From a virus: a stretch of DNA of 38,638 bases. The stretch lies in the IMG/VR virus record IMGVR_UViG_3300046536_000176, positions 1 through 38,638 of that record; one strand, written 5' to 3'. A program made the position numbers and the translations under genes. Of this stretch, positions 9,587-38,638 are shown piece after piece. A model generated the notes under the pieces. It saw nothing but the letters and a program-made list of their open reading frames with translations. It was not told the DNA's origin and ran no database searches. The stretch's first letter is position 1. Each line of letters opens with the position of its first letter.

Positions 9587-11131
9587 ATGACTGTCTACAA
9601 GCGGCCTGGTGTCTACATCAGCGAGACGCTGACCCCGCTCAGCCAGACCGTGGAGACGCCCGGCGAGTCCGTGGCGGCCTTCGTCGGCACCAACAAGCAG
9701 GGAGGCCCGCTGGCCCCCACTCTGGTGTCCTCGTGGTCGCAGTACGTGGCCACCTTCGGCGGCTTCGGCGACACGAGCGAGTACCTGCCGTTCGCGGTGT
9801 ACTCCTACTTCAACAACGGTGGCAACTCGGCGTACATCGTGCGTGCGGCGGCCTCCGACGCGGTCGCGGCGTCCGTCACCCTGGAGGACACCGAGGCGAC
9901 TCCGGAGCCGACCCTGAAGATCACCGCGATCTCTCCGGGCTCCTGGGGCAACACGGTCTACGTGGACGTCACTGCGGCCTCGTCCGGCAACGGTCGCTTC
10001 GACCTGTACGTCTACGTCGGCGGTTCCACGGCGGCCTTCCTCAAGGAGCGTTTCACCGACGTCTCCCTGGACCCGGCCGACTCCCGCAACGCCACCGCGC
10101 TGATCAACTCCCCGGTCACCGGCTCGGCCTTCATCCAGGTAGAGAGCCTGCTTAATACCACGTGGGCCACGTCCCACGCCCCGGCCATACAGTCCGGCAC
10201 CGTCCTGGCGGGCGGCTCGGACGGCGTGGCGGCTGTCGACCTGGCCACCGCGACGGAACGTCTGGAGATCGTCGACCAGAACCTGATCCTCAACCTCCCG
10301 GGCGTCACCGACGCGACCGTGATCAACCCGATCATCGAGTGGGCCGAGGCGCAGGGCAGTGTGTTCGTCGTCGTGGACGGCGTGAAGTCGACCTCGGCCG
10401 ACAACTCCCACTCCTACGCGCTGTCGCTCCAGGGCATGTCCACGGGTGGCTCCGCCATCACCGCATCCTCCTACGCTGCGGTCTACGGCCCGTGGCTGAT
10501 CGTCAACGACCCGGCTACCGCCGCGTCCGGCTCGGCGCGTCTGCTGCCGCCTGGCGGTGCGGTCCTGGGCCAGTACTCCCGTACCGACGCCTCGCGCGGC
10601 GTGCAGAAGCCTCCGGCCGGTATCGACACCGTCCTCAAGGGCGTGCTGGACGTGGAGTTCCGCTTCTCCAACGACGACCAGGACACCCTGAACGTCGCGG
10701 GCATCAACGTGATCAAGTCGCTGCCCGGCACCGGCTTCGTCATCTACGGCGCCCGGACGCTGTCCACGGGCATGCCGGACCGGTACGTCTCCATCCGCCG
10801 CTCGCTGATGCTGATCAAGAAGGGCATCCTCGACGCGACTCGCTTCGCGGTCTTCGAGCCCAACGACCAGATCCTGTGGGATCAGGTCAACGCGGTCATC
10901 TCGCAGTACCTGCTCACCCTGATGCAGACCGGCGTGCTGGCCGGGTCCACTCCGGACCAGGCGTACTTCGTGACCTGCGACTCCTCCAACAACACCGCCG
11001 CTTCGGTGGCCAACGGCGTCGTGAACATCTCCGTCGGCGTGGCGCTCCAGACCCCGGCCGAATTCATCGTGATCGAGATCGGCCAGTACTCGGGTTCGTC
11101 CACCGCGACGGACTCGACGGCCACTTCCTGA
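9587..11131 (+). CDS. Contractile tail sheath protein
   Basis: A 514-residue sheath subunit whose contraction drives the tube through the cell envelope. The N-terminus VYKRPGVYISETLTPLSQTV is the classic sheath opening ('y..PGVYi.E'). It is followed by VAAFVGTNKQGGPLAPTLV and by YFNNGGNSAYIVRA, the hallmark 'yFfnnGg..ayvvRv' motif. The C-terminal domain has NVAGINVIKSLPGTGFVIYG, GARTLS and RYVSIRRSLMLIKKGIL, matching the conserved 'iN.ir...g.g..vwGaRTl' and 'yv.vrRl...ie..i' motifs. Length is usual. AGGAGAAACAC precedes the ATG. Codons for residues 189-191 are a CTTAATACC copy. It shows that the virion has a contractile tail. Confidence 0.96.
   Translation: MTVYKRPGVYISETLTPLSQTVETPGESVAAFVGTNKQGGPLAPTLVSSWSQYVATFGGFGDTSEYLPFAVYSYFNNGGNSAYIVRAAASDAVAASVTLEDTEATPEPTLKITAISPGSWGNTVYVDVTAASSGNGRFDLYVYVGGSTAAFLKERFTDVSLDPADSRNATALINSPVTGSAFIQVESLLNTTWATSHAPAIQSGTVLAGGSDGVAAVDLATATERLEIVDQNLILNLPGVTDATVINPIIEWAEAQGSVFVVVDGVKSTSADNSHSYALSLQGMSTGGSAITASSYAAVYGPWLIVNDPATAASGSARLLPPGGAVLGQYSRTDASRGVQKPPAGIDTVLKGVLDVEFRFSNDDQDTLNVAGINVIKSLPGTGFVIYGARTLSTGMPDRYVSIRRSLMLIKKGILDATRFAVFEPNDQILWDQVNAVISQYLLTLMQTGVLAGSTPDQAYFVTCDSSNNTAASVANGVVNISVGVALQTPAEFIVIEIGQYSGSSTATDSTATS
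10151..10159 (+). repeat. CTTAATACC nonamer, copy 3
   Basis: Inside the tail sheath gene, far from any start codon, read as Leu-Asn-Thr. Confidence 0.85.
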
Positions 11132-11734: not shown

Positions 11735-12601
11735 GTGGCTACCGACCTTAATACCGAGGGGTACACCAACCCCCTTGCGAACCCTGGTGCCGCCAACGCG
11801 CAGATCGCTGCGCTTCTGGCCGACGCCGGGGCTCCGGTCGCCAAGCCCGAGATCGCCCTCCCGGCAGGTGGCAATTTCAACCTGCCGGGAGGCTACGTTC
11901 TGGGCAGCGACTACACCTCCGTCCGCTACGACGCCGAGGTCCGCGAACTGACCGGCGCCGACGAGGAAGCACTGACCAAGGCCCGCCAGGCTGGCATCGG
12001 CAAGTACATCTCCACCCTGCTGTCGGCAGGCACCGTCTCCGTGGGGACCGAGGCAGCCAGCCCCCTCCTGCTGTCCAACCTGCTGCTCGGCGACCGGGAC
12101 ATGCTCCTGATGGAGATCCGGCGCGCGACCTACGGCGACGAGATCGTGTGGGACCAGTACACCTGTCCCTGGTGCGGCGAGGAGTTCCGCCTGTCCATCA
12201 CCCTGGACGAGATCCCCGTGCGCCGCCTGGACAACCCGGCCGACCGCATCTTCGAGGTGGAACTGCGCAAGGGCCGCAAGGCTCACGTCCGGCTCCCCGT
12301 CGGAAGCGACCAGGAGGCCATCCTCGCCGTCGCCGACCGTCTCAGCGAGCCCGAGCAGAACACCCTCCTGCTTTCCCGGGTTCTGATTTCCGTGGTCGAG
12401 GCCGACGGAACGGAGAACGCCGTCACGGGTAATCCGGACTTCGCCCGCTCGCTCGGTGTCGTGGACCGCAAGTCGATCCTCGACGCGATTGAGAATAAGC
12501 AGCCCGGCCCCCAATACAATGGGGTGAAGTTCACGCACGATTCGTGCGGGAAGGAGGTCCCCGTCTTCATCCAGGCAGGGGACCTGTTTCAGGGTCTGTA
12601 A
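11735..12601 (+). CDS. Tail assembly chaperone, zinc-ribbon-bearing (zero-frame product)
   Basis: Begins at GTG 11735 after TAGGAG. The 288-residue protein has a disordered N-terminus. A middle domain follows (YVLGSDYTSVRYDAEVRELT, then ADEEALTKARQAGIGKYI and LLLGDRDMLLMEIRRATYGD). This reads like the T4 gp26 / baseplate-hub chaperone family. An inserted zinc ribbon is suggested by CPWC at about residue 145 and HDSC near residue 270. Its position between tube and tape measure is where G/GT-type chaperones lie, and the following reading frame encodes a typical second-frame extension. The natural stop TAA is at 12599-12601. Codons 5-7 are a CTTAATACC copy. Function by synteny and pattern. Confidence 0.78.
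   Translation: MATDLNTEGYTNPLANPGAANAQIAALLADAGAPVAKPEIALPAGGNFNLPGGYVLGSDYTSVRYDAEVRELTGADEEALTKARQAGIGKYISTLLSAGTVSVGTEAASPLLLSNLLLGDRDMLLMEIRRATYGDEIVWDQYTCPWCGEEFRLSITLDEIPVRRLDNPADRIFEVELRKGRKAHVRLPVGSDQEAILAVADRLSEPEQNTLLLSRVLISVVEADGTENAVTGNPDFARSLGVVDRKSILDAIENKQPGPQYNGVKFTHDSCGKEVPVFIQAGDLFQGL
11747..11755 (+). repeat. CTTAATACC nonamer, copy 4
   Basis: Twelve bases after the GTG start of the tail chaperone gene, read as Leu-Asn-Thr (codons 5-7). Confidence 0.85.
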
Positions 12602-12755
12602 CTACTTCGACACGTACTTCGAATACGAGCAACTAGTCGAGCTATCCCCGGCTTGGAGCCTCAGCGAAATTCGCCGGTTGACCGTACGTGAGCGCCTGCA
12701 CTGGGTGAAGTGGTTCACGGCGCAACGCAATAGGCGAGTGGCTGAGGCGGAGTAA
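12528..12755 (+). CDS. Frameshift extension of the tail assembly chaperone (+1 frame)
   Basis: This frame is open from 12528 to the TAA at 12753-12755 but has no ATG, GTG or TTG before the overlap with the upstream gene ends. Past the zero-frame stop it encodes NYFDTYFEYEQLVELSPAWS, then LSEIRRLTVRERLHWVKWF and a charged end. This is a well-formed small helical domain of the kind found as the frameshifted tail of chaperones. Relative to the upstream gene it is +1 (equivalently -2). A ribosome shifting between 12528 and 12599 would give a 339-residue fusion. Its stop overlaps the tape measure start (TAATG), so it is probably translated. A TTG at about 12678 would give only a 25-residue peptide and is unlikely. 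Confidence 0.75.
   Translation, partial: SSRTIRAGRRSPSSSRQGTCFRVCNYFDTYFEYEQLVELSPAWSLSEIRRLTVRERLHWVKWFTAQRNRRVAEAE
12551..12590 (+). promoter_or_regulatory. Candidate +1 programmed frameshift signal
   Basis: Two possible sites are visible. One is AAGGAGGT (12551-12558), a near-perfect anti-16S match, placed two bases before the codon CCC (12560-12562) followed by G, so that slipping one base gives CCG; this resembles the RF2 layout of an internal ribosome-binding sequence just before the shift codon. The other is TTT (12587-12589) followed by C, where slipping one base gives TTC, the preferred Phe codon. TTT is rare in this genome. Confidence 0.5.
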
Positions 12756-15700
12756 TGGCTAACGAAGGTACGGTGGCGGGTCAGGGATCGCTCCTCGGTG
12801 TCAACAAGGCACAGGACGCGATCTCTGACCTCACGAAGAGCATCGCGTCGCTGAGCAAGGAACTGAAGGACGCCGCGTCCAAGTTCAAGTCGGTCGGCAC
12901 GGGTGCAGCCGGTCTCTGGCAGGGATGGAACAGTCACGGCTCCGGGTCCACTTCGGGCGCCCGGGGCTTTGGCATGCTCGCCAACGACATCTGGAACGGC
13001 ACCTCGAACTACGCCCACGGCCGTCCCAACGGTGGCACGGGCGCCCCCGCCACGGCTCCCCGGGCAGGCACGCCGCAGCAGCCCATGACGCGCTCTGCCA
13101 ACGGCGGTGGGGCCACGTTCTCCGGCGCGACCAACCAGGGCGGCGGGGCGGCCAACAACGGCGGCCAGGGCGGCTCTGGCGGCTCCGGCGGTTCCGGTGG
13201 TGCAGGCACCCCGCGTCTGGGCGGAGGCTCGTCGAACAACGGCGGCCGGAGGAGCCCCTACACGCTCAAGAGCGGCCTGAAGGACTTCCACGCCTGGGCC
13301 ACCAAGCAGATGCCCGACCAGGTCGTCATGGAGACCACGGCCTACCAGACCGGCCTGATCTCCTCGCAGTCCAAGGCCGCGAGCCTGAACCAGGGCTTCC
13401 ACAACAACCTCAACGCACAGAGCACGTCCGACGCCGCGTCGGCGTACGGGACGCTGGCCAACTCCACGGCCGGTTCCCCCGGCTCCGCTAGTTTCGGCAA
13501 CGCCTGGAACTACGCCAAGTCCTCCGGCTACCTCACCCCCGGCATATCCGAGGCGCAGCGCGCCCAGGCGATGACCGGCGCGTGGACGGCCTCCTCGTAC
13601 TACGCCAACCAGGCCATCGGCATTCAGACGATCAAGGGCGGCACGCGGCAGACGCCCCGGCAGATCGCCCAGCAGGTCATGCAGCGCTGGCCGCAGTTGA
13701 AGAACGTCAAGAACGCCGACCAGATCCACGACACCCTCAGCGACGGCTCGGCCGTGATGCAGTCGCTGGCGCGGACCCTGCCCGCCGACACCCTCCAGGC
13801 CGTCAAGGCCGAACTGACCGGCATGCTCAACGCCCAGATCAGGGGTGCCTCGCAGCAGCAGTACGTCTCCACGATGAACAAGGCCGCGAGCGGCAACAAG
13901 GACGCCCGCAACCAGTTGAAGAAGTGGAACATCGGCGACTCGACGGCCCAGTCCGTCATGGACCGCGCCGGGACGCTGCGCAACCAGGACGTCAACACCA
14001 ACGAGGCGTTCGCCGACGGCCTGAAGACCGCGACCCGCTACCTCGACAGTTTCTCCACCGCGCTCCAGAAGGTCCTCAAGGCCACGGGAGCGGACAGCGT
14101 CATCGGCTGGGCCGGTGGTGCAGGGTCCATGGTCGGCTCCGCTGTCGGATCCGGCCTAGGCACCATCGGAATGATGCGCGGCCTCGGCTCCATCGGCCGT
14201 CTCGGCGGATTCGGTGGAGGCGGCGGGGGTGGAATGCTCGGTGCTGCTCGCAGCGCCCTCGGTGGCGGCACGGGCGAGGCTGCGGGCTTCGGTGCGCTCG
14301 GAGGTGCACTGGACCTGTCCGGGGCCGCCCTGGGCGCCGCTGGCGGCTTCGGCCTGGCCGCGTGGGGCACGCACCACTTCGGCTCGCAGTTGGCGGACAA
14401 GTACACCAAGAAGGGCAGCAAGGGCAACAAGCTGGCCCACGTCGGCGTGGACGCGGCGACCGGCGCCCTGACGGGTGCTGCGGTCGGCTCCATCGTCCCC
14501 GTCATCGGTACCGGTGTCGGCGCGGCTGTCGGCGGTCTGATCGGTGCAGGTGTCGGCATCTTCGGTGGTGCCGGTGACTCCAACGCCTCGGCCGCCACCG
14601 GCACGGGCAAGTCCGGCGCGGTCGCCACCGGTACGTCCGGCGCGGGCAAGACGGCCGCTGCCGTCATCAAGGTCGCCATGAAGTACCTGGGCGTGAAGTA
14701 CGTGTGGGGTGGCTCGACGCCGAAGGGCTTCGACTGCTCGGGCCTGATGCAGTACTCCTTCCGGCAGATCGGTGTCTCCCTCCCGCGCACGGCGGCCCAG
14801 CAGCAGAAGGCGGGCAAGAAGGTCAAGCTCGGTTCCGAGCGGGCGGGCGACCTGCTGTTCAACGGCGACCCCGCGCACCACGTCGTCATGTGCATCGGTA
14901 ACGGCCGGATCATCGAGGCGCCGCACACCGGGGCCGTGGTCCGCATCCGTGCCTACCGCTCCGGCGAGTTCACCAACGCGGTGCGCATCCTCGGCGCGGT
15001 CGGCAACATGGACGATCTCGCCAGCGACGGCACGGACACCGCAGGTTCGAGCGACAACCGTCTGTCCAACACCGGCTTCGGTGGTGACGTCGGTTCGTAC
15101 GGCTCGATCGAGGAGGCCGACGCCCTCGCGGCCGGTATCGCCTCGGCCGGTTCGGCCAACGTCGGATCCGGTGTCGGCGCCGGGCAGGGCGCGGGGAAGA
15201 GCAACGACGACAACGGGGCTATCCCCGGGTCGATGCCGACCGGCAACCTCAAGGGCTGGATCAAGTCAGCGCTCGGGATCCTGCACCAGGACACGACGTC
15301 GAACGAGAAGTACGTCAACACGATAGCCATGCACGAGTCCGGTGGTAATCCGCACGCGCAGAACAACTGGGACTCGAATGCCAAGGCGGGCCACCCGTCG
15401 AAGGGCATTATGCAAACCATCGACTCCACGTTTAAGGCGTACTCGCTCCCCGGCCACAAGAACATCTGGAATCCCGTCGACAACATCATTGCCGGTGTGC
15501 GCTACGCGGACTCCCGATATGGCTCGCTGGCGAAGGTGCCCGGAATCAAGTCGATGGCGAACGGCGGATCCTACAAGGGATACGCAGTCGGCTCCACGAA
15601 TATCGACGTCGACCAGACCGCCCGCGTACACAAGGGCGAAATGATTATCCCGGCGCACCAGGCGGACGCAATCCGAAAGGCGCTGGCGAGCAATACCCCG

Positions 15701-15886
15701 CTCGCGAGCGGGCTCGGCGGACTTAATACCAAGGGTGGTGCGGCCACCCTCCACTTCCACTCCGGCTCCGTCGTAGTGCAGGTGCAGGGCGCCATGGACC
15801 AGACCTCGGCGCGAGACGCAGCGAAGCAGTTCATGACGGCGCTCGCCGAGGACAACCGGATCAACCTCATCGCGGCAGGAAACTAA
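12755..15886 (+). CDS. Tape measure protein with NlpC/P60 and lytic transglycosylase domains
   Basis: A 1043-residue protein that sets tail length and probably digests the wall during entry. Residues 1-150 are helical then Gly/Ser/Asn rich. About 150-480 is helical, and about 450-630 alternates Gly/Ala-rich helices that may insert in the membrane. An NlpC/P60 peptidase domain spans about 635-750 with Cys661 (FDCSG), His709 (AHHVV; His708 adjacent) and His724 (APHTG). A goose-type/SLT transglycosylase domain spans about 840-950 with Glu861 (MHESGG) and GIMQTIDSTFKAY. The C-terminal 100 residues resemble the tape-measure ends seen in siphoviruses (VHKGEMIIPA). It overlaps its neighbours at both ends (TAATG). 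A nonamer copy lies near the 3' end. Confidence 0.95.
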   Translation: MANEGTVAGQGSLLGVNKAQDAISDLTKSIASLSKELKDAASKFKSVGTGAAGLWQGWNSHGSGSTSGARGFGMLANDIWNGTSNYAHGRPNGGTGAPATAPRAGTPQQPMTRSANGGGATFSGATNQGGGAANNGGQGGSGGSGGSGGAGTPRLGGGSSNNGGRRSPYTLKSGLKDFHAWATKQMPDQVVMETTAYQTGLISSQSKAASLNQGFHNNLNAQSTSDAASAYGTLANSTAGSPGSASFGNAWNYAKSSGYLTPGISEAQRAQAMTGAWTASSYYANQAIGIQTIKGGTRQTPRQIAQQVMQRWPQLKNVKNADQIHDTLSDGSAVMQSLARTLPADTLQAVKAELTGMLNAQIRGASQQQYVSTMNKAASGNKDARNQLKKWNIGDSTAQSVMDRAGTLRNQDVNTNEAFADGLKTATRYLDSFSTALQKVLKATGADSVIGWAGGAGSMVGSAVGSGLGTIGMMRGLGSIGRLGGFGGGGGGGMLGAARSALGGGTGEAAGFGALGGALDLSGAALGAAGGFGLAAWGTHHFGSQLADKYTKKGSKGNKLAHVGVDAATGALTGAAVGSIVPVIGTGVGAAVGGLIGAGVGIFGGAGDSNASAATGTGKSGAVATGTSGAGKTAAAVIKVAMKYLGVKYVWGGSTPKGFDCSGLMQYSFRQIGVSLPRTAAQQQKAGKKVKLGSERAGDLLFNGDPAHHVVMCIGNGRIIEAPHTGAVVRIRAYRSGEFTNAVRILGAVGNMDDLASDGTDTAGSSDNRLSNTGFGGDVGSYGSIEEADALAAGIASAGSANVGSGVGAGQGAGKSNDDNGAIPGSMPTGNLKGWIKSALGILHQDTTSNEKYVNTIAMHESGGNPHAQNNWDSNAKAGHPSKGIMQTIDSTFKAYSLPGHKNIWNPVDNIIAGVRYADSRYGSLAKVPGIKSMANGGSYKGYAVGSTNIDVDQTARVHKGEMIIPAHQADAIRKALASNTPLASGLGGLNTKGGAATLHFHSGSVVVQVQGAMDQTSARDAAKQFMTALAEDNRINLIAAGN
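15722..15730 (+). repeat. CTTAATACC nonamer, copy 5
   Basis: Near the 3' end of the tape measure gene, read as Leu-Asn-Thr, 164 bases before the next start. Confidence 0.85.
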
Positions 15887-16937: not shown

Positions 16938-18081
16938 GCAAGCACCTGTCACCCGCCTGTCGATGGGCAACGACAGGGTCCGCGACCTGATCTCCCGGGT
17001 GGAGGTCCGCGAGGGCTACGGCGTGCACTCGATGGCCATCATCGACGTCACCGCCCCGCCCACGTCCAAGAGCCCCTACAGCGAGCTGACGCCTGTCGTG
17101 CTCGACTACGGCCGCGCCCCGAACGACCTGGTGCGCTGGAACGGGTACGTACACCACTCCAGCGCGCTCGCATCCGCCGACACCCGCAACGTCACCGTGC
17201 GGTACATCTGCATCGGCACCACGCTGCCCATGAACACCCAGCGCACCCGGTCCTGGAAGAACATCTCACCCACGTCGATCGTCCGCCAGGTGGGCCGGGA
17301 GAACGGCCTGCGCACCGTCATCTCCCCATCCGCCCGGCGCCTGACGTACTGGGCCCAGACGGGCCAGTCGGATTTCAAACTGGTCAACGACCTCGCGTCC
17401 GAGACCGGATTCCGTTTCTGGGTGGAGGGCACCACCCTGTACTTCCTCGACCCGAGAGTTCTCCTGCTCGGGCAGAAGCAGCAGGACATCCCGGTGTTCT
17501 CCAAGAACCAGACCCCGGGAACGTACGACACCCTGCGCAGCCTTTCCATCCTCACCGGAACGATGATCCCCCGCAGTAACGGGACGACAGCCACATCGGT
17601 GATATCCGGCCTGGATGCGAAGACCGGAAAGGTAATCAAGGCGTCCTCCACCTCGGACACGGGAATCGGAACGTTCCTGAATTCCATCAGCACCGCTCGG
17701 GCGGTCGACAACTACGCCGACGCGCAGGCTCTTATGGAGGCGCGCACGCTCGCGTCCCGTGGGTGGATCACCATGCAGTCCGAGATCTACGGCACCGCGA
17801 AAGTCGCTCCCGGAACGCTCATCGGAATCTCCGGCAGTTCCGTCGCGGTGGAAAACAAGGGCCGGTGGATGGTGACCGGCACCAAGCACGTCATCAACCG
17901 CGACAAGAGCAACAAGGGGCTGATGTTCACGACGACCGTCGATGCGGAAAGGGACCAGCCCTACGCGGTAACATTCCGGAGCGATGCGAACAAGCGATTC
18001 AAATTCGACACCGTCCCGGCTGTGCTGAGGAACAAGCAGTTCTGGGAATCGAGTCTTCTGGAGGACATCAATGTCGGCTGA
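16930..18081 (+). CDS. Baseplate hub protein, gpD / late control D-like
   Basis: A 383-residue protein using GTG at 16930 (overlap of eight bases with the LysM gene). The N-terminal region forms a beta-barrel (RVRDLISRVEVREGYGVHSM, then VVLDYG and WNGYVHH). The middle section has NISPTSIVRQVGRENGL, then LTYWAQTGQSDFKLVNDLAS and ETGFRFWVEG, the well-known 'q...sdw.fl..la...G..f....g.l.' signature of gpD/gp27/VgrG-type hubs. A C-terminal segment has PGTLIGISGSSVAVENKGRW. It should form the trimeric platform between tube and spike. The next gene, an OB-fold spike, overlaps by 11 bases, the usual partner order. Confidence 0.9.
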   Translation: MSEQAPVTRLSMGNDRVRDLISRVEVREGYGVHSMAIIDVTAPPTSKSPYSELTPVVLDYGRAPNDLVRWNGYVHHSSALASADTRNVTVRYICIGTTLPMNTQRTRSWKNISPTSIVRQVGRENGLRTVISPSARRLTYWAQTGQSDFKLVNDLASETGFRFWVEGTTLYFLDPRVLLLGQKQQDIPVFSKNQTPGTYDTLRSLSILTGTMIPRSNGTTATSVISGLDAKTGKVIKASSTSDTGIGTFLNSISTARAVDNYADAQALMEARTLASRGWITMQSEIYGTAKVAPGTLIGISGSSVAVENKGRWMVTGTKHVINRDKSNKGLMFTTTVDAERDQPYAVTFRSDANKRFKFDTVPAVLRNKQFWESSLLEDINVG

Positions 18082-21000
18082 TCCGGTGCTGGGAATGTAC
18101 CGGGCGAGCGTTGCCAATAACCAGGACCCGCTGAATGAGGCCCGCACCACGCTGCTCATTCCGCAGGTTCTCGGAAACGCCGAAAGCGCCTGGGCCGTGC
18201 CCGCCTCCCCGACCAACACGATCCCGCCGGTCGGGCAGACGGTCTGGGTGCAGTTCTCCGGCGGAGACATCACCAAGCCGGTCTACAGCCCGCTCGGCAT
18301 CAAGGACGTCCAGGACCAGGTGGCCTCCGGCAGCGAGCTGGACTCCCTGCCGCCCAAGGAGCCGACCGCCCTGACTCTGTCTACGGTGCAGTACGTCACC
18401 GACGAGGGAGTCACCCGGGCCCGCGTGACAGCGAGCTGGACCCCGCCGACGGAGAACCAGGACGGGACCGCGCTCAACGACCTGTCCCACTACCTGCTCC
18501 AGACCTCCTACGACAACACCAACTGGAACGGCGGCTTCGTCACCACCGAGGACCTGGTCCTCCTCGACGGGCTTAATACCGGCGTGGCCTTCTACGTGAG
18601 GGTCGCGGCCATCGACACCAGCAACAACCCCTCTCTGTGGGCGACCGCCAACGTCACCACGGCGTCCGCGTCCACCCCGCCTCCGGTGCCCTCCGCGCCG
18701 GGGGTCGTCGGCGTGCTCGGCGGCCTGCGCGTCACCTGGGACGGCCTGGACTCCACTGGCACCGCCATGCCCGCGATCTTCTCCCACGTGCAGGTGCAGC
18801 GCGACACCGACGTGGCCTTCTCCAACCCGGTAGTCGTCGGCTCCCTGCCCGGACCGGACTTCCTGTACGACTCCGTGCAGAACTACGGCGTCGCCTACAA
18901 CTACCGTCTGGTCGCCTACTCCAAGGTCGGCATCGCCTCCGCGCCGTCGGCCGCGCACTCCGACACACCCAAGCAGGCCGGTACCGGGGACATCGCGGCG
19001 AACTCGGTCACCGCCAACCAGATGGCGGCCGGGACGATCACCGCCCAGTCCGGCATCATCGCCTCCATCGACGCGTCCAAGATCACCGTCGGCAAGCTCA
19101 CCGCTGCACAGATCGACGCCACCAACCTCCAGGTGTCCGGCGCCAACGTCACCGGCACGCTGGACGCCAACAACACCAACGTCGTCAACCTGGACGCGGC
19201 GAACATCAAGGCCGGAACCCTGACCGTCGACAAGTTCAGCGCCGGGCTCCAGGGCACCGTAGGCCAGAAGTTCTACGACTTCGGCCAGCAGGCCAGCAAG
19301 TGGAGCAACGGCAACTCCACCGGCACCATGACCACGGTCAGCATCAGCGATGCGGCGTCCGGCGGTACCGTCATGCGCTGCGTCGGATACATCCAGGGCG
19401 CCTACCGGCCGGACATCCTCATCCCCTTCGACCCGGGTGTCACCTACCGCGTCACCTGCCGACTGCGGCAGACCGTAGCCAACGCCGTCACCGGCACCAA
19501 CCAGAACGTCTACATGGGCGTCACCGGCATCGCGTCCGACGGCGTGACGCTGGTCAACTCCACCGGAGCCAACGCCCGCTCCAGCCAGCACTACTGCGCC
19601 GCCACGGCCACCTACATCAACACCGGCTCCGGTTGGCAGACCTTCACCGGCTACATCAAGGGCACGGCCGCGACATCCGACACCGGAGCACACACCAGCC
19701 CGCTCAGCCCGATGCGTCTCCACCAGAACGTGAAGTACATAAGCCCCTGCCTGTACGCCAACTACAACGGCGGCACAGGCACGGTCGAGGTGGATATGTT
19801 CACCATCGAGGTCGTCGAGACCGGCTCGGTCAACTCGGCCAACATCAACCTGGGCAACGTCAACGCCTCACACCTGTCCCTGGGCACCGTCTCCGGCAAC
19901 CTCGTCGCCAACCCCGGCTTCGAAGACGCCTCCCGCGCCGGATGGACCCTGACCCAGAGCGACAGTACGTTGGCCACCACCCAGGCCAAGATCGAGATCG
20001 CTCAGGGTGGATACCCGGCACGCTCCGGCCAGGGAAAGGCCGCCCTGGGCGTGAAGAACACCGGCACAGCGACCATCACCAGCAACGCGTTCCCCGTCAT
20101 CGCAGCCCAGACGTACATGTTCCGGTACTGGTACTACGGCGTCGGGCACCTGCACGTCACCTTCGAGACCAGCCCGGACGGCGTCACCTGGACCGACCAG
20201 ATGGCAGGAGCCAACGACGTCACCTACAACTCCAGCGCGTACACCGAGGACATCTTCGAGATGACCGCGCCGACCGGAGCACTGTGGGGGCGCGTCTCCT
20301 TCCAGCAGTTGAACCCCGGCTCGTACGGCCTGTCCACCACGGCGTTCTCCTACATCTGCGTGGACGACGTCATCGTCATGCAGGAGGGCTACGGCGCCAC
20401 GGACATCTCGGCCGCTGGCGTCCGGCTGTACGGTCCGGACGGCACCCTCGCCACGGAACTGACCACGGCCAACGCCTACGCCACCTTCGCGGGCGGCAAG
20501 GCCAGCATCGACCCCAACGGCGTCGGCACCTTCAACTCCATCTGGACCCCGCAGCGCCCCAGCGGTGCAGCATCCGATGACCCGACCGGGCAGATCTGGT
20601 ACCAGGGTCAGGAACTGGGCTCCCTGTTGTGGAACATGCCGTGGGGCATGGTCACCTACGAGCGGGGCTGGACCCAGAAGCCGACATCCACGACCTACTA
20701 CATGAAGGACTCGCTCAACAACCCGGACGCATCGTTCGGCCTTATCGAGTTGTCCTTCGAGGCTGTCGAGGGTCGCATGTACCGCATCCGGGCCAGGTCC
20801 CAGTTCGACTTCACAGGCGGCGGAAGCGGGCCAGCAGTTTCCGAGTTGGAGAATGCAATCCAGGCGTCCGGCACGACGTCATCCCTGAACGGCTGCACCA
20901 TCCTCACGCCAAACGGGGCCAGCCCCACGGTGTCCGACACGACGCTTGGTCGCAATTTTGGGGTGTCCTACGACGGCGCGGGCAGCGACTTCACCTGTGA

Positions 21001-21739
21001 CGTGGAGGCCATCCTCGTCTGCTCCACTGACCCGGGCGGCCTGTACGGGGCCACCACGGGCCTCGCGCCGGGTACTCACCGCATCCTGTGGGTCGGCCGT
21101 ATCCACGCTGGCCCGGCCACGGGATGGGGCCTGCGCAGTTACTCTCCAGCCCAGTCCTCGGACTTCTACGTCGAGGACATCGGTCCGGCCGTTCACGAGG
21201 GCGGTGTCTACAACACGGGTGGCCAGGTCGTCACGGCCACGCAGACCTACACCAAGACGTACAACGCGGTGTGGTCCCGCCGGTTCGGAAACGCCGGATA
21301 CACCGACGGCACCGTGTATCAGGGCTACTACTCCAGCACCTGGGGCACGCAGAAGTCGATGATCTACTTCGGCACCCAGCCGTACACCGACATGGGTTCT
21401 ACGGCGAAGGTCTCCAAGGTCGAGGTCTACCTCTACAACCAGCACTGGTACTACAACGGCGGCGGTACGGCGCACATCGGTGCATTCACCGGCACGACCG
21501 AGCCGACGTCGTTCTCCGGCAGCGGAGTGAACCTCACGGTTTCCTCCTGGCCCGTCGGCGCCGGAAAGTGGGTGACCCTTCCGTCGTCCTGGAATTCAAC
21601 CTGGAACGCGAGCACCCCGTACCGTGGAATTACGCTGGGTGCGGATCTCGGCTCCAGTACCGACAAGACCTACTACGGATACTTCGCTGGCGTAGGGGAT
21701 TCCCACCCTCCGCAGTTGCGTATCACCTACACCAAGTAG
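18071..21739 (+). CDS. Baseplate spike OB-fold fused to FN3, fibre repeats and adhesion domains (1222 aa)
   Basis: Residues about 1-85 are a gp5/gpV-type OB fold (ARTTLLIPQVLGNAESAWAV, later PPVGQTVWVQFSGGDITKPV). Two fibronectin-III-like domains follow at about 95-300. A threonine/alanine/isoleucine repeat stretch at about 310-400 (SVTANQMAAGTITAQSGIIA and similar 'agtIta..I.a..v.a' repeats) is typical of trimeric fibre shafts. Next come beta-sandwich carbohydrate-binding-like domains (about 400-560 and 610-780), a further beta-domain (about 830-1040), and a C-terminal DNRLRE-like domain from about 1050. Normal spikes are a few hundred residues, so this is a spike-adhesin fusion. It carries a nonamer copy at 18572. 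Confidence 0.85.
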   Translation: MSADPVLGMYRASVANNQDPLNEARTTLLIPQVLGNAESAWAVPASPTNTIPPVGQTVWVQFSGGDITKPVYSPLGIKDVQDQVASGSELDSLPPKEPTALTLSTVQYVTDEGVTRARVTASWTPPTENQDGTALNDLSHYLLQTSYDNTNWNGGFVTTEDLVLLDGLNTGVAFYVRVAAIDTSNNPSLWATANVTTASASTPPPVPSAPGVVGVLGGLRVTWDGLDSTGTAMPAIFSHVQVQRDTDVAFSNPVVVGSLPGPDFLYDSVQNYGVAYNYRLVAYSKVGIASAPSAAHSDTPKQAGTGDIAANSVTANQMAAGTITAQSGIIASIDASKITVGKLTAAQIDATNLQVSGANVTGTLDANNTNVVNLDAANIKAGTLTVDKFSAGLQGTVGQKFYDFGQQASKWSNGNSTGTMTTVSISDAASGGTVMRCVGYIQGAYRPDILIPFDPGVTYRVTCRLRQTVANAVTGTNQNVYMGVTGIASDGVTLVNSTGANARSSQHYCAATATYINTGSGWQTFTGYIKGTAATSDTGAHTSPLSPMRLHQNVKYISPCLYANYNGGTGTVEVDMFTIEVVETGSVNSANINLGNVNASHLSLGTVSGNLVANPGFEDASRAGWTLTQSDSTLATTQAKIEIAQGGYPARSGQGKAALGVKNTGTATITSNAFPVIAAQTYMFRYWYYGVGHLHVTFETSPDGVTWTDQMAGANDVTYNSSAYTEDIFEMTAPTGALWGRVSFQQLNPGSYGLSTTAFSYICVDDVIVMQEGYGATDISAAGVRLYGPDGTLATELTTANAYATFAGGKASIDPNGVGTFNSIWTPQRPSGAASDDPTGQIWYQGQELGSLLWNMPWGMVTYERGWTQKPTSTTYYMKDSLNNPDASFGLIELSFEAVEGRMYRIRARSQFDFTGGGSGPAVSELENAIQASGTTSSLNGCTILTPNGASPTVSDTTLGRNFGVSYDGAGSDFTCDVEAILVCSTDPGGLYGATTGLAPGTHRILWVGRIHAGPATGWGLRSYSPAQSSDFYVEDIGPAVHEGGVYNTGGQVVTATQTYTKTYNAVWSRRFGNAGYTDGTVYQGYYSSTWGTQKSMIYFGTQPYTDMGSTAKVSKVEVYLYNQHWYYNGGGTAHIGAFTGTTEPTSFSGSGVNLTVSSWPVGAGKWVTLPSSWNSTWNASTPYRGITLGADLGSSTDKTYYGYFAGVGDSHPPQLRITYTK
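18572..18580 (+). repeat. CTTAATACC nonamer, copy 6
   Basis: Inside the first FN3-like region of the spike-adhesin gene, read as Leu-Asn-Thr, far from any start codon. Confidence 0.85.
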
Positions 21740-27857: not shown

Positions 27858-28487
27858 ATGCTCTCCAACTACGCTGACGCGGGTGCGCTCGTCGTCGGCC
27901 TGGTCCTGCCCGCCGTCGTGGCAGTGTTCACCAAGCCGTCGACCAACTCCACCGTCAAGGGCTTCGCGCACGCCGTCCTGGCCGTCGCTACCGGCTCCCT
28001 GGCCGTCTACAAGCAGGACCCCTCGAACTTCGTGTGGGCGCCCGCCGTCATCGCGTCGTTCCTGGCCTGGCTGTCCGGCACCGCGTTCTACCACTCCTTG
28101 CTGAAGAAGTACTCCTGGTTCCAGACCGTCCAGAACCTGTTCGTGAAGGAGGCCGAGGTCGTCGTCGAGAGGGTGCTTAATACCTCCGACACCGGCCAGA
28201 TCGCCCAGTACTTCGCGCTGGCCCAGGAGGCCGAGGAGTCCGAGGACGCGGCGGGCATCGTCAACGACTTCCCCTTGAGCACCGACGTGATCGAGTCCGG
28301 CGTGGAAGAGGTCGTCAAGGCGGCCGAGAAGATCCCCGTCGTCGGCGCGGTCATCGGGAGCGCGGACCCCGTCGCCGTCCCGGCCCTCGTCCAGGCCGTG
28401 GAGGAAGTTGCGGCGCCGGTCGTCGAGAACTCCACCCCGGCCGTCACTCCGCAGCCGACCGGCGCCCTGGGCCCGAGGTCGATCTGA
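27858..28487 (+). CDS. Holin-like membrane protein with long cytoplasmic tail (209 aa)
   Basis: AAAGGAACACC precedes the ATG. Hydrophobic segments lie at about residues 9-25 (LVVGLVLPAVVAVF), 35-50 (FAHAVLAVATGSLAVY) and 58-74 (APAVIASFLAWLSGTAFY), followed by a charged turn KKYSW. The rest (from about 95) is a soluble acidic, Ala/Val/Glu-rich tail. Location right behind the tail genes and before the terminator fits a holin. The missing piece is an endolysin: none is beside it, although the tape measure has hydrolase domains. The nonamer copy at 28176 falls in the tail region. A non-lytic membrane role is the alternative. Confidence 0.65.
   Translation: MLSNYADAGALVVGLVLPAVVAVFTKPSTNSTVKGFAHAVLAVATGSLAVYKQDPSNFVWAPAVIASFLAWLSGTAFYHSLLKKYSWFQTVQNLFVKEAEVVVERVLNTSDTGQIAQYFALAQEAEESEDAAGIVNDFPLSTDVIESGVEEVVKAAEKIPVVGAVIGSADPVAVPALVQAVEEVAAPVVENSTPAVTPQPTGALGPRSI
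28176..28184 (+). repeat. CTTAATACC nonamer, copy 7
   Basis: Inside the holin-like gene, read as Leu-Asn-Thr. The nearest upstream copy is 9.6 kb away, the widest gap between copies. Confidence 0.85.
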
Positions 28488-28838: not shown

Positions 28839-30143
28839 ATGGCTAAGGTCTTCCTTGTTGCCGATCACGGCAGCGACCACCACGAACCTGGAGCAGACTT
28901 GAGCAAGCAGCCCATCACCCTGGCCTTCGCTGGTTCCGCCGACACCTCCCCGGAGAACGTCCAGGCCCTGCTGAACGACTGGCTCGGCTTCGGCGACGAG
29001 GACAAGGACGGCTTCTTCGAGCCCAGCGACCGCGAGATCAACCTGATCTTCCCGATCACCCGCGAGCACCTGTCCGACGGCCTGGAGGCGGTCCTCGCCT
29101 GGGCCGAGAAGGCGGACCTCCCCTACGTCGCGGTCGCCGACAACAAGCGCAGCCGGGCCACCGAGTCCTTCCTCTCGGACGCGGAGGAGGTCGTCCACGC
29201 CGCCAACGTCACCGCCGGGGTCGTCGACCTGCTCAAGAAGGCCGACAGCGTCGGCGACGAGGTCCACCTGATCCTGCTGTGGGGCGACGAGGGCAGCGAG
29301 CAGGCCGAACTCCTCCTGGACGCGGCCGAGCAGGCGGGCATCAAGGCCAAGGACCTGACGGCGGGGCTGGACGACATCTCGTTCGGCGAGCAGCCGCAGG
29401 CCGAGGAGCCCGAGCCGGAGCCCGAGCCGGAGCCCGAGCCGGAGGAGCCGAAGCGCGGTCGCCGTCGCGGTCGCCGCCAGGAGCCGGTCGAGGTCGAGCC
29501 GGAGGAGGAGCCGCTGACCGAGGACGAGCCCGAGGCGCCGAATGAGGAGCCGAAGGAGGAGCCGAAGCGCGGCCGTCGCGGCCGTCGCCAGGCCGAGCCG
29601 GAGCCGGAGGAGCACCCGGTCGAGCAGGACATCCGCGAGCAGGAGGAGGACGAGGACCTGGACCTGGAGCAGCAGATCAACCGCGCTGCGCAGAAGGTCC
29701 AGCGGGAGACCAAGCCGGTCTCCGACAAGGAGATCGACCTCATCCTGATCGGCAACGCTTTGGAGGGTGCCTACAACGCCTTCCGTCTGGAGGACGAGCG
29801 CAACGCCGTCATCAACCAGGCCGAGGTGCGGCACCGTCCGCTGACGGAACTGCTGGCCAAGGCGCTTAATATCGTGGCCGACGCGGTCCACGACGCCGAG
29901 GCCGCGAAGCAGGACGACCCGGCCGCCACGGCCGAGGAGAAGTCCGAGGAGCCGGAGGAGCAGACCTCCGGGCGCCGTCGCCGTGGCCGTCCGCGTGACG
30001 AGTCCAAGACGTTCGCCTTCCTGGTCGACGACGAGGGCAACTACACCCGTCGCGGCCGTGGCCGGATCCCGGCCGGATCGAAGGTCGTCCACCTGACCCG
30101 GGCGGAGATCGAGGAGAAGGGCCTCGAACTCGACTCGGAGTGA
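28839..30143 (+). CDS. Acidic/basic repeat protein with AT-hook-like end (434 aa)
   Basis: I take ATG 28839 (AKVFLVADHGSDHHEPG) rather than the TTG at 28821, which sits in the terminator tail. The N-terminal 190 residues look like a Rossmann-type alpha/beta domain (YVAVADNKRSRATESFLSDA, then VHLILLWGDEGSEQAELLLD). A disordered Glu/Pro-rich region alternates with basic clusters GRRRGRR and GRRGRR. A helical domain (about 280-360) follows, then GRRRRGRPRDES, an AT-hook-like core, and a small C-terminal beta unit. It may bind DNA or organise it; this is inferred. It is probably the first gene of the early block. Nonamer variant CTTAATATC lies at 29865. Confidence 0.75.
   Translation: MAKVFLVADHGSDHHEPGADLSKQPITLAFAGSADTSPENVQALLNDWLGFGDEDKDGFFEPSDREINLIFPITREHLSDGLEAVLAWAEKADLPYVAVADNKRSRATESFLSDAEEVVHAANVTAGVVDLLKKADSVGDEVHLILLWGDEGSEQAELLLDAAEQAGIKAKDLTAGLDDISFGEQPQAEEPEPEPEPEPEPEEPKRGRRRGRRQEPVEVEPEEEPLTEDEPEAPNEEPKEEPKRGRRGRRQAEPEPEEHPVEQDIREQEEDEDLDLEQQINRAAQKVQRETKPVSDKEIDLILIGNALEGAYNAFRLEDERNAVINQAEVRHRPLTELLAKALNIVADAVHDAEAAKQDDPAATAEEKSEEPEEQTSGRRRRGRPRDESKTFAFLVDDEGNYTRRGRGRIPAGSKVVHLTRAEIEEKGLELDSE
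29865..29873 (+). repeat. CTTAATATC nonamer variant, copy 8
   Basis: Inside the acidic/basic repeat protein gene, read as Leu-Asn-Ile, in the same codon phase as all other copies. Confidence 0.8.
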
Positions 30144-30148
30144 GTAAC

Positions 30149-30207
30149 GCAAAAGCCCCCGGCGCTGAAGAGGTTCGAGACCTCAATTCACTGCCGGGGG
30201 CTTTTGC
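30149..30207 (+). terminator. Long-stem terminator with a nested T-arm-like hairpin
   Basis: GCAAAAGCCCCCGGC (30149-30163) pairs over 15 bp with 30193-30207. Inside the loop, GAGGT (30170-30174) pairs with ACCTC (30180-30184). Read as GG-TTCGAGA-CC, that inner piece has the loop sequence of a tRNA T-arm. The right arm ends in CTTTTGC, giving a modest U-run. It separates the first early gene from the replication genes. Confidence 0.75.
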
Positions 30208-30257
30208 CCACCACACCCCGAGGCCCACCACAAACCCCGAGATGGGAAGAACCTAAC

Positions 30258-30305
30258 ATGTCGAGCCGACTTAATATCAACGGCGGACGGGGAGCCGCCG
30301 AGTGA
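30258..30305 (+). CDS. Leader minigene 1 (15 codons) before the replication initiator
   Basis: ATG at 30258 with GGGAAGAA upstream begins a 15-residue peptide, MSSRLNINGGRGAAE. Its TGA (30303-30305) overlaps the GTG start of the next gene (30302-30304) in a GTGA. The motif CTTAATATC supplies codons 5-7. Behind it, CGGCGG (30281-30286) pairs with CCGCCG (30295-30300), and the loop holds GGGGAG, the ribosome-binding site for the next gene. Translating the minigene would melt that hairpin. A coupling or leader role is inferred from this layout, which recurs at 35242. No protein-level function can be claimed. Confidence 0.6.
   Translation: MSSRLNINGGRGAAE
30270..30278 (+). repeat. CTTAATATC nonamer variant, copy 9
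   Basis: In leader minigene 1, read as Leu-Asn-Ile, starting exactly 32 bases before the next gene's GTG. Confidence 0.85.
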
Positions 30306-31446: not shown

Positions 31447-32103
31447 ATGGCGACCGACCCCCGGGTCCACGCCCTGCGGCTCAAGGAGTACGGCATCCCC
31501 GCCCACTACCGTCACCTGCGGCTTAATACCGTGGCGGACACCGAAGAGTCCGCCGCCTGCCGTACCTGGCTCGACAACCTGCGGGACCACTACGTCACCG
31601 ACAAGCGGCCCCTGACGGAGTACCCCGAGGACTGGTCCCAGATCGGCAAGGGCCTGCTGCTGGTCGGCCCGCCCGGCACCGGCAAGACCACCCTCGCCAC
31701 GGCCACGCTGCTGGAGGTCTACTACGTCCACCGGCTCCCGGTGCACTGGCTGGCCTACGCCGACTTCGTGAAGGACTCCATCGAGAAGATGGGCCTCCAG
31801 GACCGCAGCGAGCCCGAGGCCGTCGCCCGGTGGTGGGAGATCCAGGACAAGATCGTGGCGGCCGAGAAGGCCCCCGTCCTCGTGCTGGACGACGTCGGCA
31901 AGGAGCACCGGACCAAGACCGGCTACGCCGAGGGACTGCTGGACACCCTGCTGCGCCAGCGGCACCGCGAGGCCCGGCCCACGATCGTCACCTCGAACCT
32001 CCCGCCCAGGGAGTGGGGCGCGGTCTACAACCCCACGATGGGTTCCTTCATCCAGCAGGCATTCACGCACGTCAAGTTGATCGGGAAGGACCGCCGTGGC
32101 TGA
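31447..32103 (+). CDS. DnaC-like AAA+ helicase loader
   Basis: A 218-residue ATPase that should load the replicative helicase at the origin. The Walker A motif GPPGTGKTT is at residues 74-82 and Walker B VLVLDDVG at about 144-151. The sensor region TIVTSNLPPREW with the following arginine-containing segment matches DnaC/IstB-type loaders. The N-terminal 65 residues vary in this family and would contact helicase or initiator. ATG 31447 is preceded by GAGGAGG. It stands between the initiator and the helicase. A nonamer copy (31522) encodes LNT at residues 26-28. It overlaps the next gene by eight bases. Confidence 0.9.
   Translation: MATDPRVHALRLKEYGIPAHYRHLRLNTVADTEESAACRTWLDNLRDHYVTDKRPLTEYPEDWSQIGKGLLLVGPPGTGKTTLATATLLEVYYVHRLPVHWLAYADFVKDSIEKMGLQDRSEPEAVARWWEIQDKIVAAEKAPVLVLDDVGKEHRTKTGYAEGLLDTLLRQRHREARPTIVTSNLPPREWGAVYNPTMGSFIQQAFTHVKLIGKDRRG
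31522..31530 (+). repeat. CTTAATACC nonamer, copy 10
   Basis: 75 bases after the helicase loader start codon, read as Leu-Asn-Thr within RLNT. Confidence 0.85.
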
Positions 32104-32320
32104 GCAACTGACCCTTCCGTTCGAGGACGAGGTTTTGGTGATTCTCTACAAACGCGAGGCCGAGTCCCGGGCCCTCCCGGCGTACTGGGACGCGCTGGAG
32201 TACACCGTCCGCGTCCGTGCCAAGCACCTCGGCTTCGTGATCAAGCGCTCCCGGAGGGACGCCTGGTACGAGGACGGGCGACTTAATATCCAGCTCCGCG
32301 TAGAGGCGGAGCGCACCTGA
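32096..32320 (+). CDS. Hypothetical protein (74 aa)
   Basis: Starts at GTG 32096, overlapping the loader gene by eight bases, and its TGA overlaps the next ATG by one base. The protein is helical at first (AEQLTLPFEDEVLVILYKRE) and then basic (VRVRAKHLGFVIKRSRRDAW). It ends with YEDGRLNIQLRVEAERT, a beta-strand pair. It may be a small nucleic-acid-binding accessory of the replisome, but I know no family. A nonamer variant lies just before its end. Codon use matches the neighbours except at the nonamer. Confidence 0.65.
   Translation: MAEQLTLPFEDEVLVILYKREAESRALPAYWDALEYTVRVRAKHLGFVIKRSRRDAWYEDGRLNIQLRVEAERT
32282..32290 (+). repeat. CTTAATATC nonamer variant, copy 11
   Basis: Near the end of the 74-residue gene, read as Leu-Asn-Ile, 38 bases before the next start codon. 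Confidence 0.85.
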
Positions 32321-35241: not shown

Positions 35242-35286
35242 ATGACCCGGCTTAATACCTGCCCCCGCAAGGGGGACCACCGATGA
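35242..35286 (+). CDS. Leader minigene 2 (14 codons) before the HNH-like gene
   Basis: ATG 35242 after AGGAG (35231-35235, spacing six bases) encodes MTRLNTCPRKGDHR; the TGA overlaps the next ATG (ATGA, 35283-35286). CTTAATACC supplies codons 4-6. Immediately after it a CCCCC-GCAA-GGGGG hairpin (35262-35275) hides GGGGGA, the ribosome-binding site for the next gene. The layout repeats that of the minigene at 30258: motif 32 bases before the next start, hairpin, overlap. A leader or coupling function is inferred; the peptide itself may have none. Confidence 0.65.
   Translation: MTRLNTCPRKGDHR
35251..35259 (+). repeat. CTTAATACC nonamer, copy 12
   Basis: In leader minigene 2, read as Leu-Asn-Thr, exactly 32 bases before the next ATG. 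Confidence 0.85.
35262..35275 (+). promoter_or_regulatory. GNRA-tetraloop hairpin masking a ribosome-binding site
   Basis: CCCCC (35262-35266) and GGGGG (35271-35275) close the tetraloop GCAA. The G-run is the only plausible ribosome-binding site for the ATG at 35283 (7 bases away), so it is hidden unless the minigene's ribosome opens the hairpin. Confidence 0.75.
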
Positions 35287-35579
35287 AGGCACCCGAGGGC
35301 TACGAGCACCTGGGCGAGGAGTTCTGGGCCCGCGTCGAGCCGGACCCGGACAGCGACTGCCTCATCTTCCAGTCCACCGCGACGCGGCCGTACTACCAGG
35401 GCAAGACCTTGCTGTCCTTCCTGACCGGCGGGGACGGCCGCCAGAAGCACCGCGCGTGCAGGCGGAGGATGTGCGCCAACCCGGACCACATCCAGGACGG
35501 GCACTTCGACATGGGGACGCCGTACGCCCGGCGCCCCCGGTCGCGGTCGCAGTTCTCCCGTCAGTACTCGCAGTGCTGA
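35283..35579 (+). CDS. HNH-endonuclease-like protein (98 aa)
   Basis: Starts at ATG 35283 overlapping leader minigene 2. The central motif HRACRRRMCANPDHIQDGHF matches the core of HNH proteins with the 'C...C.NPdHl..Gt' pattern: two cysteines, the NPDH segment and a trailing basic region (YARRPRSRSQFSRQ). The usual N-terminal histidine pair is not clear, so catalytic activity is uncertain; the first 40 residues are acidic (ARVEPDPDSDCLIF). Free-standing HNH genes are common in phages for homing or packaging. This one lies between primase and helicase, away from the terminase. It overlaps the following gene by seven bases. Confidence 0.7.
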   Translation: MKAPEGYEHLGEEFWARVEPDPDSDCLIFQSTATRPYYQGKTLLSFLTGGDGRQKHRACRRRMCANPDHIQDGHFDMGTPYARRPRSRSQFSRQYSQC

Positions 35580-37524: not shown

Positions 37525-37878
37525 ATGACCACCATCGCTGAAGCACTCGGCATCACCTGGGGCAACAGCGTCACTGACGCCCCCGAGTATCGGCTGACCT
37601 ACCACGCACAGAAGCAGGCCGCCCTGAAGGGCTGGAGCAGTGCGCAGGTCCTGGAGGCCGCGAACCGTCCGCAGCACACCTCTCCGTCCAGTCGGTTCCC
37701 CGGCCAGTGGCGCCACGTCCGAGGCGAGATCGTCGCCGTCGTCGACCCGGCCGACCGCCGCGTGATCACCGTCTACCAGGACGTGGCAGAGACCAACCTC
37801 CGCGCCGACCAGACGGACCGCGACGCCCAGCAGTACGCCAAGCGCCACTACGGCCGTGAGATCGGCTGCAAGTCCTGA
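37525..37878 (+). CDS. DUF4258 / RelE-like fold protein (117 aa)
   Basis: I take ATG 37525 (AGGAGGA upstream), not a TTG at 37441 within the promoter. The core EYRLTYHAQKQAALKGWSSA, then QVLEAANRPQHTSP and WRHVRGEIVAVVDPADRRVI, matches the 'HA..R...RGi...eV..al..P' to 'v....g..i.VvvD.....ViTvy' pattern of DUF4258 and RelE-like mRNA interferases. In those, His, Arg and Lys residues act in RNA cleavage; here His and Arg are present, but activity is unproven. A strong promoter drives it. An antitoxin candidate (44 aa) lies upstream but is transcribed separately. Confidence 0.72.
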   Translation: MTTIAEALGITWGNSVTDAPEYRLTYHAQKQAALKGWSSAQVLEAANRPQHTSPSSRFPGQWRHVRGEIVAVVDPADRRVITVYQDVAETNLRADQTDRDAQQYAKRHYGREIGCKS

Positions 37879-38478: not shown

Positions 38479-38638
38479 ATGAGCACCATCGCCGACAGCA
38501 TCGACCAGGCGTTCGCCGAGATCGGTGAGCAGTTCTACCCCGGATCGACGCGCCCCCTGGTACGTCACCGCAACCGGCTTAATACCGAGGCCGCCCCGTC
38601 GGCGGCCGACCCCGGAGCATGGGACGCCAAGCCCCGTA
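38479..38638 (+). CDS. Unidentified gene, 3' partial
   Basis: ATG 38479 with AGGAG (38465-38469) upstream opens a frame running off the right edge. The visible 53 codons read STIADSIDQAFAEIGEQFYP, then GSTRPLVRHRNRLNTEAAPS and AADPGAWDAKPR, a helical start followed by a Pro/Ala-rich segment. Nothing in this piece identifies the protein. The last nonamer copy (38578) gives RLNT here. Only the N-terminus is present, so length and function cannot be judged. Confidence 0.65.
   Translation, partial: MSTIADSIDQAFAEIGEQFYPGSTRPLVRHRNRLNTEAAPSAADPGAWDAKPR
38578..38586 (+). repeat. CTTAATACC nonamer, copy 13
   Basis: In the 5' part of the last (partial) gene, 99 bases after its start codon, read as Leu-Asn-Thr within RLNT. 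Confidence 0.85.

Follow-up and report, generated by a model that had tools for sequence, protein, structure and literature searches.

A frame-locked nonamer and its downstream hairpin suggest translation-dependent mRNA control in a soil phage family

Analysis of the window, a 38,638-nt stretch of viral DNA (IMG/VR record IMGVR_UViG_3300046536_000176) that is a fragment of a phage genome of roughly 105 kb, revealed a dispersed nine-base element, the nonamer, that is read in a single frame throughout a group of related phages. Comparison of the genomes shows, as properties of their sequences, exact nucleotides, a sense orientation, frame 0, an open translated frame, a hairpin, and an in-place A/C switch between two clades. 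The element is very probably dependent on translation, and nonamer and hairpin together suggest an unrecognised form of mRNA control on the ribosome. The nonamer would imply a sequence reader on translating ribosomes with 9–10-base specificity, a level of gene control that would be new for phages. We found no description of such a frame-locked element in the open-access literature, and no other dispersed phage element tied to one reading frame is known to us.

Copy number, letters and reading frame of the nonamer

Close relatives of the window are numerous in IMG/VR, and no match to GenBank phages was found at the DNA level. By primase and terminase, the closest named phages are Streptomyces phages LuckySocke, Alone3, GiJojo, pSt2308 and BRock, with identities to the nearest of them of about 40–44% for primase and about 61–63% for terminase; going by these relatives, the host is probably Streptomyces. 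The gene families that five large nonamer genomes share and four relatives lack include a tyrosine recombinase and a serine recombinase, and the nonamer clade therefore looks temperate.

We surveyed 14 genomes, whole or in large parts and including the window, with genes called by a simple home-made caller; nonamer sites of related genomes are not independent of each other. The strict nonamer occurs 421 times, at a density of ~35 copies per genome. In ten genomes one strand carries 27–39 copies and the opposite strand 0 or 1; the two opposite-strand copies placed in detail, those of genomes G001 and G005, are within small minus-strand genes, in frame 0. A phage-encoded antisense guide was rejected, with no other complement of the nonamer present. 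In the window, CTTAATAYC occurs 13 times, always on the + strand (Table 1), and its 7-base core CTTAATA likewise occurs 13 times, against 0.25 expected, and on that strand only.

Table 1. Coordinates of features in the window
Feature	Position	Strand	Basis or remark
Nonamer, codon 3 of scaffold-position gene 4333–5193, then 6-bp stem	4339–4347	+	
Nonamer, last three codons of gene 7063–7482	7471–7479	+	
Nonamer, codon 189 of gene 9587–11131 (tail-sheath position)	10151–10159	+	
Nonamer, codon 5 of gene 11735–12601	11747–11755	+	
Nonamer, codon 990 of gene 12755–15886, then 8-bp stem	15722–15730	+	
Nonamer, codon 168 of gene 18071–21739	18572–18580	+	
Nonamer, codon 107 of gene 27858–28487, weak hairpin	28176–28184	+	
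Nonamer CTTAATATC, codon 343 of gene ending 30143	29865–29873	+	
Second minigene MSSRLNINGGRGAAE, overlaps GTG start of gene at 30302	30258–30305	+	sequence
Nonamer CTTAATATC, frame 0	30270–30278	+	sequence
Hairpin CGGCGG-ACGGGGAG-CCGCCG, Shine-Dalgarno in loop	30281–30300	+	sequence, folding
Nonamer, codon 26 of DnaC-like gene 31447–32103, then 9-bp stem	31522–31530	+	
Nonamer CTTAATATC in gene 32096–32320, then GCTCCGC..GCGGAGC	32282–32290	+	
Minigene MTRLNTCPRKGDHR, 14 codons plus stop, nonamer in frame 0	35242–35286	+	ATG 35242 to TGA 35286
Nonamer CTTAATACC, read CTT-AAT-ACC	35251–35259	+	sequence, frame statistics
Hairpin CCCCC-GCAA-GGGGG, 2 bases past nonamer	35262–35275	+	sequence, folding
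HNH-like gene after minigene	35283–35579	+	PHROG endonuclease matches, E 0.0014 and 0.023
Candidate trans-acting factor (fam14), DUF4258/BrnT-like, predicted RelE/ParE/colicin E5 (BECR) fold	37525–37878	+	
Nonamer, codon 34 of gene starting 38479, then GGCCGCC-CCGTC-GGCGGCC	38578–38586	+	

The nonamer exists in two versions of equal density, CTTAATAYC in clade A, to which the window belongs, and CTTCATAYC in the sister clade C. At many sites the same codon of orthologous genes holds a nonamer in both clades and only the fourth letter differs (fam47 at codon 3, fam57 at codon 5 and fam22 at codon 14 are examples); since the switch is made at dozens of places at once, it points to a trans-acting reader. 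There are 108 distinct site positions (clade C only, 44). Sites can also move, within a gene as in fam39, where the codon is 57 or 124, and between neighbours, the nonamer being found at about codon 205 of the clade C primase and in a minigene after the primase in clade A.

Single-base variants of the nonamer occur at or near background, with the exception in clade C of those ending in T or G. Alternative codings of the peptides LNT, LNI, LHT and LHI are likewise at background level, and selection for a Leu-Asn/His-Thr tripeptide was rejected on this ground; judged by these counts, it is the nucleotides, not the peptide, that matter. At position −1 a purine is favoured (81%, controls 41%), and at position −2 either G or C, giving the extended motif RCTTMATAYC. 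A different in-frame nonamer was sought in the distant relatives LuckySocke, G011, G015 and G018, and none was found.

All 374 strict nonamers inside genes of the 14 genomes are in sense orientation and in frame 0, where they read CTT-AAT-AYC or CTT-CAT-AYC. For each of the 47 outside called genes, frame 0 is open around the nonamer and has a start codon upstream, in many cases that of a minigene; the carriers include tiny open reading frames such as MKTIRLHT, MRRLNT and MRLHTYGGPC, each ending at a stop codon. Of 41 sites in an earlier set, all outside genes of at least 50 codons, 25 have a start codon with a ribosome-binding site in frame 0, compared with 1 and 7 for the other two frames. 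Retention of the nonamer in a translated frame even between genes, proposed in the first-pass annotation from the window, is on these counts the central fact. When other last bases are allowed, two off-frame matches appear in G020–G022, the genomes read last and not used in finding the frame rule: one is in G020 and the other, CTTCATATT, is in the clade A genome G022.

Avoidance of stop codons and of the rare TTA codon would be enough to force the frame of CTTAATA (98% frame 0 expected), but fails for CTTCATA. For CTTCATAYC, codon usage forecasts 32% of copies in frame 0 and 59% in frame 2, with the antisense orientation 3.7 times commoner than the sense; frames 1 and 2 of the clade C nonamer contain neither a stop nor TTA, yet 177 of 177 in-gene copies are in frame 0.

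Three further observations concern the distribution of motifs. A 15-kb run of small genes in G001 (72.6–87.6 kb; contigs L057 and L058) is free of nonamers, with similar gaps in G004 and G005; possibly the genes of this stretch must stay expressed. Near the terminase of clade C contigs L185 and L189, the sequence CCGCAGGG is repeated 13–14 times on a single strand, against an expectation of about 1. The family fam42 (L057 10527–12062, +) is a conserved 512-aa protein with a nonamer element at codon 94; by eye it is like tRNA-guanine transglycosylase/DpdA proteins, and it has no significant Pfam match.

The downstream hairpin and a candidate reader

The 30 bases 3′ of the nonamer fold with a mean of −10.5 kcal/mol, versus −6.5 kcal/mol in codon-aligned controls (375 sites, p 1e-69), and no such excess is found in windows upstream of the nonamer. 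The hairpin most often starts 2 bases downstream, its first paired base being base 12 counted from the C of CTT. By established work on the ribosomal helicase, this is the point at which a ribosome with CTT as its P-site codon and AAT or CAT as its A-site codon encounters a hairpin. Across orthologous groups, 95% of pair cells are conserved, and compensatory changes on both sides are seen in 10 pairs. The hairpin is present at most nonamers, including in-gene copies far from any ribosome-binding site, while a strong one is wanting at some, for example at 28176.

Two structured RNAs of other kinds were seen in these phages. A c-di-AMP (ydaO) riboswitch (L058 15912–16051, +; E 1.9e-12) precedes a LysM/NlpC-P60 gene of one phage genome. 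In distant relatives (L208 17416–19134, L213 14365–18776) a structured RNA that includes the segments GAAGATATAGTC and AGAAATGA is present in several copies and resembles the conserved core of group I introns.

The best candidate for a reader is encoded about 2 kb downstream of the 35242 junction, next to a helicase gene and a Gam-like gene. The protein matches Pfam PF14076 (DUF4258) over profile positions 1–70 of 71 with an E of 0.0018, below the curated cut-off; DUF4258 is counted among the BECR-fold toxin families and is experimentally undescribed (PMC11980606). The AlphaFold2 model has a mean pLDDT of 69.7, with residues 21–50 and 61–80 above 85. Structural neighbours of this predicted model are mostly ParE, RelE, YafQ, YoeB, HigB and colicin E5/D domains: Foldseek gives a probability of 1.00 and an E of 0.02 to CdiA toxin chain 5i4q, a modest fold similarity, and the top rows of VIA-align are almost all BECR toxins, at a modest Z of 5–6 (best 6.0). 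The neighbours mix RNases and gyrase inhibitors (ParE), which the fold does not separate.

The candidate gene was found in 39 viral loci, all 39 with the nonamer, and in every nonamer genome whose contig spans the locus, and in none of 12 nonamer-free relatives. Two apparent exceptions, G021 and G022, were discarded, as the neighbouring helicase is missing there too and the contigs are incomplete at that point. The gene belongs to a set of 35 families that five large nonamer genomes share and four relatives lack; the co-occurrence thus amounts to one evolutionary event shared with 34 other families, and the association alone is weak. In clade C the reader gene itself bears a nonamer at codon 50. 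Invariant residues of the protein include R63, H64 and Y84. At residue 44 clade A has E or D and clade C has L or R, a split that could be due to phylogeny alone. A scan of bacterial genomes found no relative of the protein, and in the Faust-group phage TunaTartare, which has a BrnT-like relative, no such motif was found within the 30 kb read. About 1 kb from the reader gene lies fam20 (L056 6955–7185, +; G001), a small protein for which a HicB-like antitoxin match, though a weak one (E 0.025), was obtained.

Readings of the element on the ribosome

In our leading though still tentative reading, each nonamer copy would be a translation-dependent mRNA element at which the hairpin pauses the ribosome and which the candidate protein reads and cuts. 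A ribosome translating the nonamer would run into the hairpin while CTT occupies its P site, the A-site codon being AAT in clade A and CAT in clade C, and would pause there; a trans-acting, ribosome-associated factor, perhaps the phage's own DUF4258/RelE-fold protein, would then recognise the phased R-CTT-MAT-AYC and cleave this phage-encoded message at the A-site codon or close to it. The purpose may be the shut-off of lytic mRNAs, perhaps in lysogeny.

This reading leans on precedents. YafQ cleaves at in-frame AAA-G/A (PMC4996492); RelE acts in the A-site codon on the ribosome (PMC5224514); and T4 RegB, which has a RelE/YoeB-like fold, cuts T4's own early mRNAs at an 11-base site, GG*AGRAYARAA (PMC3014915). 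On the strength of RelE-type in-frame cutting and of RegB acting on its own phage's mRNAs, a hairpin-paused ribosome would present RCTTMATAYC to a nuclease. Judged from sequence only, the nonamer shares with RelE-family targets the feature of being recognised in the reading frame, and YafQ and RelE match the proposal in their frame dependence and in the fold predicted for the candidate (PMC4996492, PMC5224514). The known members of the family are general toxins that read about one A-site codon, compared with a phased site of 9–10 bases at about 35 places per genome here. That known RelE-type nucleases read about one codon, and not nine bases plus a −1 purine, speaks against this reading. RegB is closer in being a phage protein of the fold predicted for the candidate, with its own mRNAs as target, a long recognition sequence with a 3′ contribution and a likely link to the ribosome. 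Compared by description rather than by sequence, it differs in that its sites are mostly Shine-Dalgarno GGAG sequences in initiation regions, a motif other than RCTTMATAYC, with no frame lock reported and no fixed downstream hairpin (PMC3014915).

The strongest rival keeps the translation step and swaps cutting for pausing or binding: the element would be read on the ribosome without being cut, and a pause, an RNA-binding regulator or the tRNA supply would tune elongation or translational coupling. We regard this as a genuine possibility, and the position of the hairpin at the ribosome entry fits it. In the tRNA variant, a phage tRNA-Asn would read AAT and a tRNA-His CAT. Both alternative middle codons are indeed NAU, a tRNA-Asn(GTT) is present in all tRNA-bearing genomes examined, and an unusual tRNA-His(GTG) occurs in three clade C genomes. 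Two other genomes of clade C, G004 and G020, lack this tRNA-His, however, so that we rejected it as the trans factor of that clade; one tRNA leaves the −1 purine and the exact AYC codon unexplained, and generic slow codons would need no exact nonamer. The tRNA-His(GTG) itself, of 86 nt, is found in G002, G003 and G005 (L060 9573–9658, L079 1737–1822 and L081 8973–9058, all −) and combines a long variable arm (class II-like, on a Leu-like body) with a His-type acceptor, G at −1 and C73.

With two natural alleles and one candidate protein, the element offers a clean system for studying in-frame mRNA recognition, and possibly a tool for cutting chosen mRNAs solely while they are translated. A broader proposal, which we consider unlikely, is that the element is a post-transcriptional counterpart of stoperators: a temperate phage would tag the majority of its lytic genes with the codon-phased element, and its own RelE-fold nuclease would cut their mRNAs on the ribosome and thereby enforce lysogeny and superinfection immunity; CTTAAT and CTTCAT would then define two immunity groups.

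Much less probable is a true stoperator- or nut-like transcription element, either DNA to which a repressor binds or an RNA signal for RNA polymerase, whose frame would be imposed by codon constraints. The nonamer does occur in many copies of one orientation relative to transcription, has clade-specific variants and belongs to a clade with integrases, and the Streptomyces temperate phage R4 uses stoperators (PMC10276819). In the sections available on Cluster A mycobacteriophages (PMC6550527) and on R4 (PMC10276819), stoperators are likewise tens of asymmetric copies, mostly in one orientation, with clade-specific site variants comparable to CTTAATA and CTTCATA, but they are double-stranded DNA sites of a transcription-stopping repressor, and those sections report neither a frame rule nor a hairpin. 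A stoperator would be expected to work independently of translation and to obey no frame rule, whereas the nonamer is bound to frame 0, even in clade C where frames 1 and 2 are free, its intergenic copies sit in minigenes, and a hairpin follows 2 bases downstream.

The junction at 35242–35286 and its companion at 30258

The first-pass annotation described at 35242 a 14-codon minigene with a strong ribosome-binding site, and this arrangement is present in every part: TAGGAG sits just upstream of the ATG, the nonamer CTTAATACC starts at 35251, exactly 32 bases ahead of ATG 35283, the G5 3′ arm of the hairpin is the ribosome-binding site of the next gene, and the 4-base overlap ATGA serves as stop of the minigene and start of the HNH-like gene. 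The same architecture had been claimed for the minigene at 30258, which has orthologues in both clades (fam140, fam149). There the 32-base distance recurs (30270 to GTG 30302), but the ribosome-binding site is not hidden, as the Shine-Dalgarno GGGGAG lies in the loop. If the element depends on translation, a copy between genes would still need to be translated, which would account for minigenes such as 35242–35286; at this junction the hairpin may also couple the HNH-like gene translationally to the minigene.

In 8 of 8 clade A variants the 35242 junction retains its minigene, its nonamer, the stem and the spacing of 32 bases; the minigene of L015/G001 has lost one codon through an in-frame 3-base deletion, and the stem persists across the loop variants GCAA, GCCA, GCGA and ACAGC. 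This conservation does not extend to clade C. G002, L040 and L048 have another minigene (MNNRLHTW...) with 25 bases to the start and a stem GGCGG-AGG-CCGCC; in L036, L043, L045, L063 and L102 the junction has a small gene of ordinary kind, with a nonamer near its start; and G004 and L049 show nothing at this place, the primase gene of G004 carrying a nonamer in place of the junction copy. The minigene is thus just one way to keep a translated nonamer copy in the junction region. With 25 bases at the orthologous junction of clade C and 23–47 bases at other sites near gene starts, the fixed 32-base distance was discarded as a general rule and is local only.

Attenuation by a leader minigene, in which minigene and hairpin would mask the ribosome-binding site of the following gene and act on that gene alone, fits the 35242 junction and its conservation in clade A, but we hold it to be very unlikely as an account of the element. 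A short open reading frame precedes one regulated gene at a minority of copies only; most lie inside structural and replication genes, with a similar hairpin and no start codon to control, so that the suggested ribosome-binding-site switch does not hold as a general architecture. The Shine-Dalgarno in the loop at 30258 and the replaced or missing minigene of clade C also count against it.

Least credible is a programmed ribosomal frameshift signal, with CTT, a shift-prone codon, as slippery P-site codon: an in-frame, heptamer-like sequence with a hairpin beyond it, where the ribosome entry lies, does recall hairpin-stimulated frameshifting, but the nonamer lacks a slippery sequence (+1 would re-pair on TTA or TTC, and −1 gives TAA in clade A and TCA in clade C), shows no consistent alternative frame or early stop, with distances to the stop in the +1 and −1 frames like those of controls or longer, and lies in many unrelated genes, with about 35 genes per genome.

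Two minor features of the window may be added. ARAGORN calls a tRNA-Phe at 19198–19273 (−), antisense within a large tail gene and probably a false positive. A strong, terminator-like hairpin, AAAAGCCCCCGGC...GCCGGGGGCTTTT, lies at 30147–30210, between the gene end at 30143 and the 30258 minigene, so that this minigene may open a new transcription unit.
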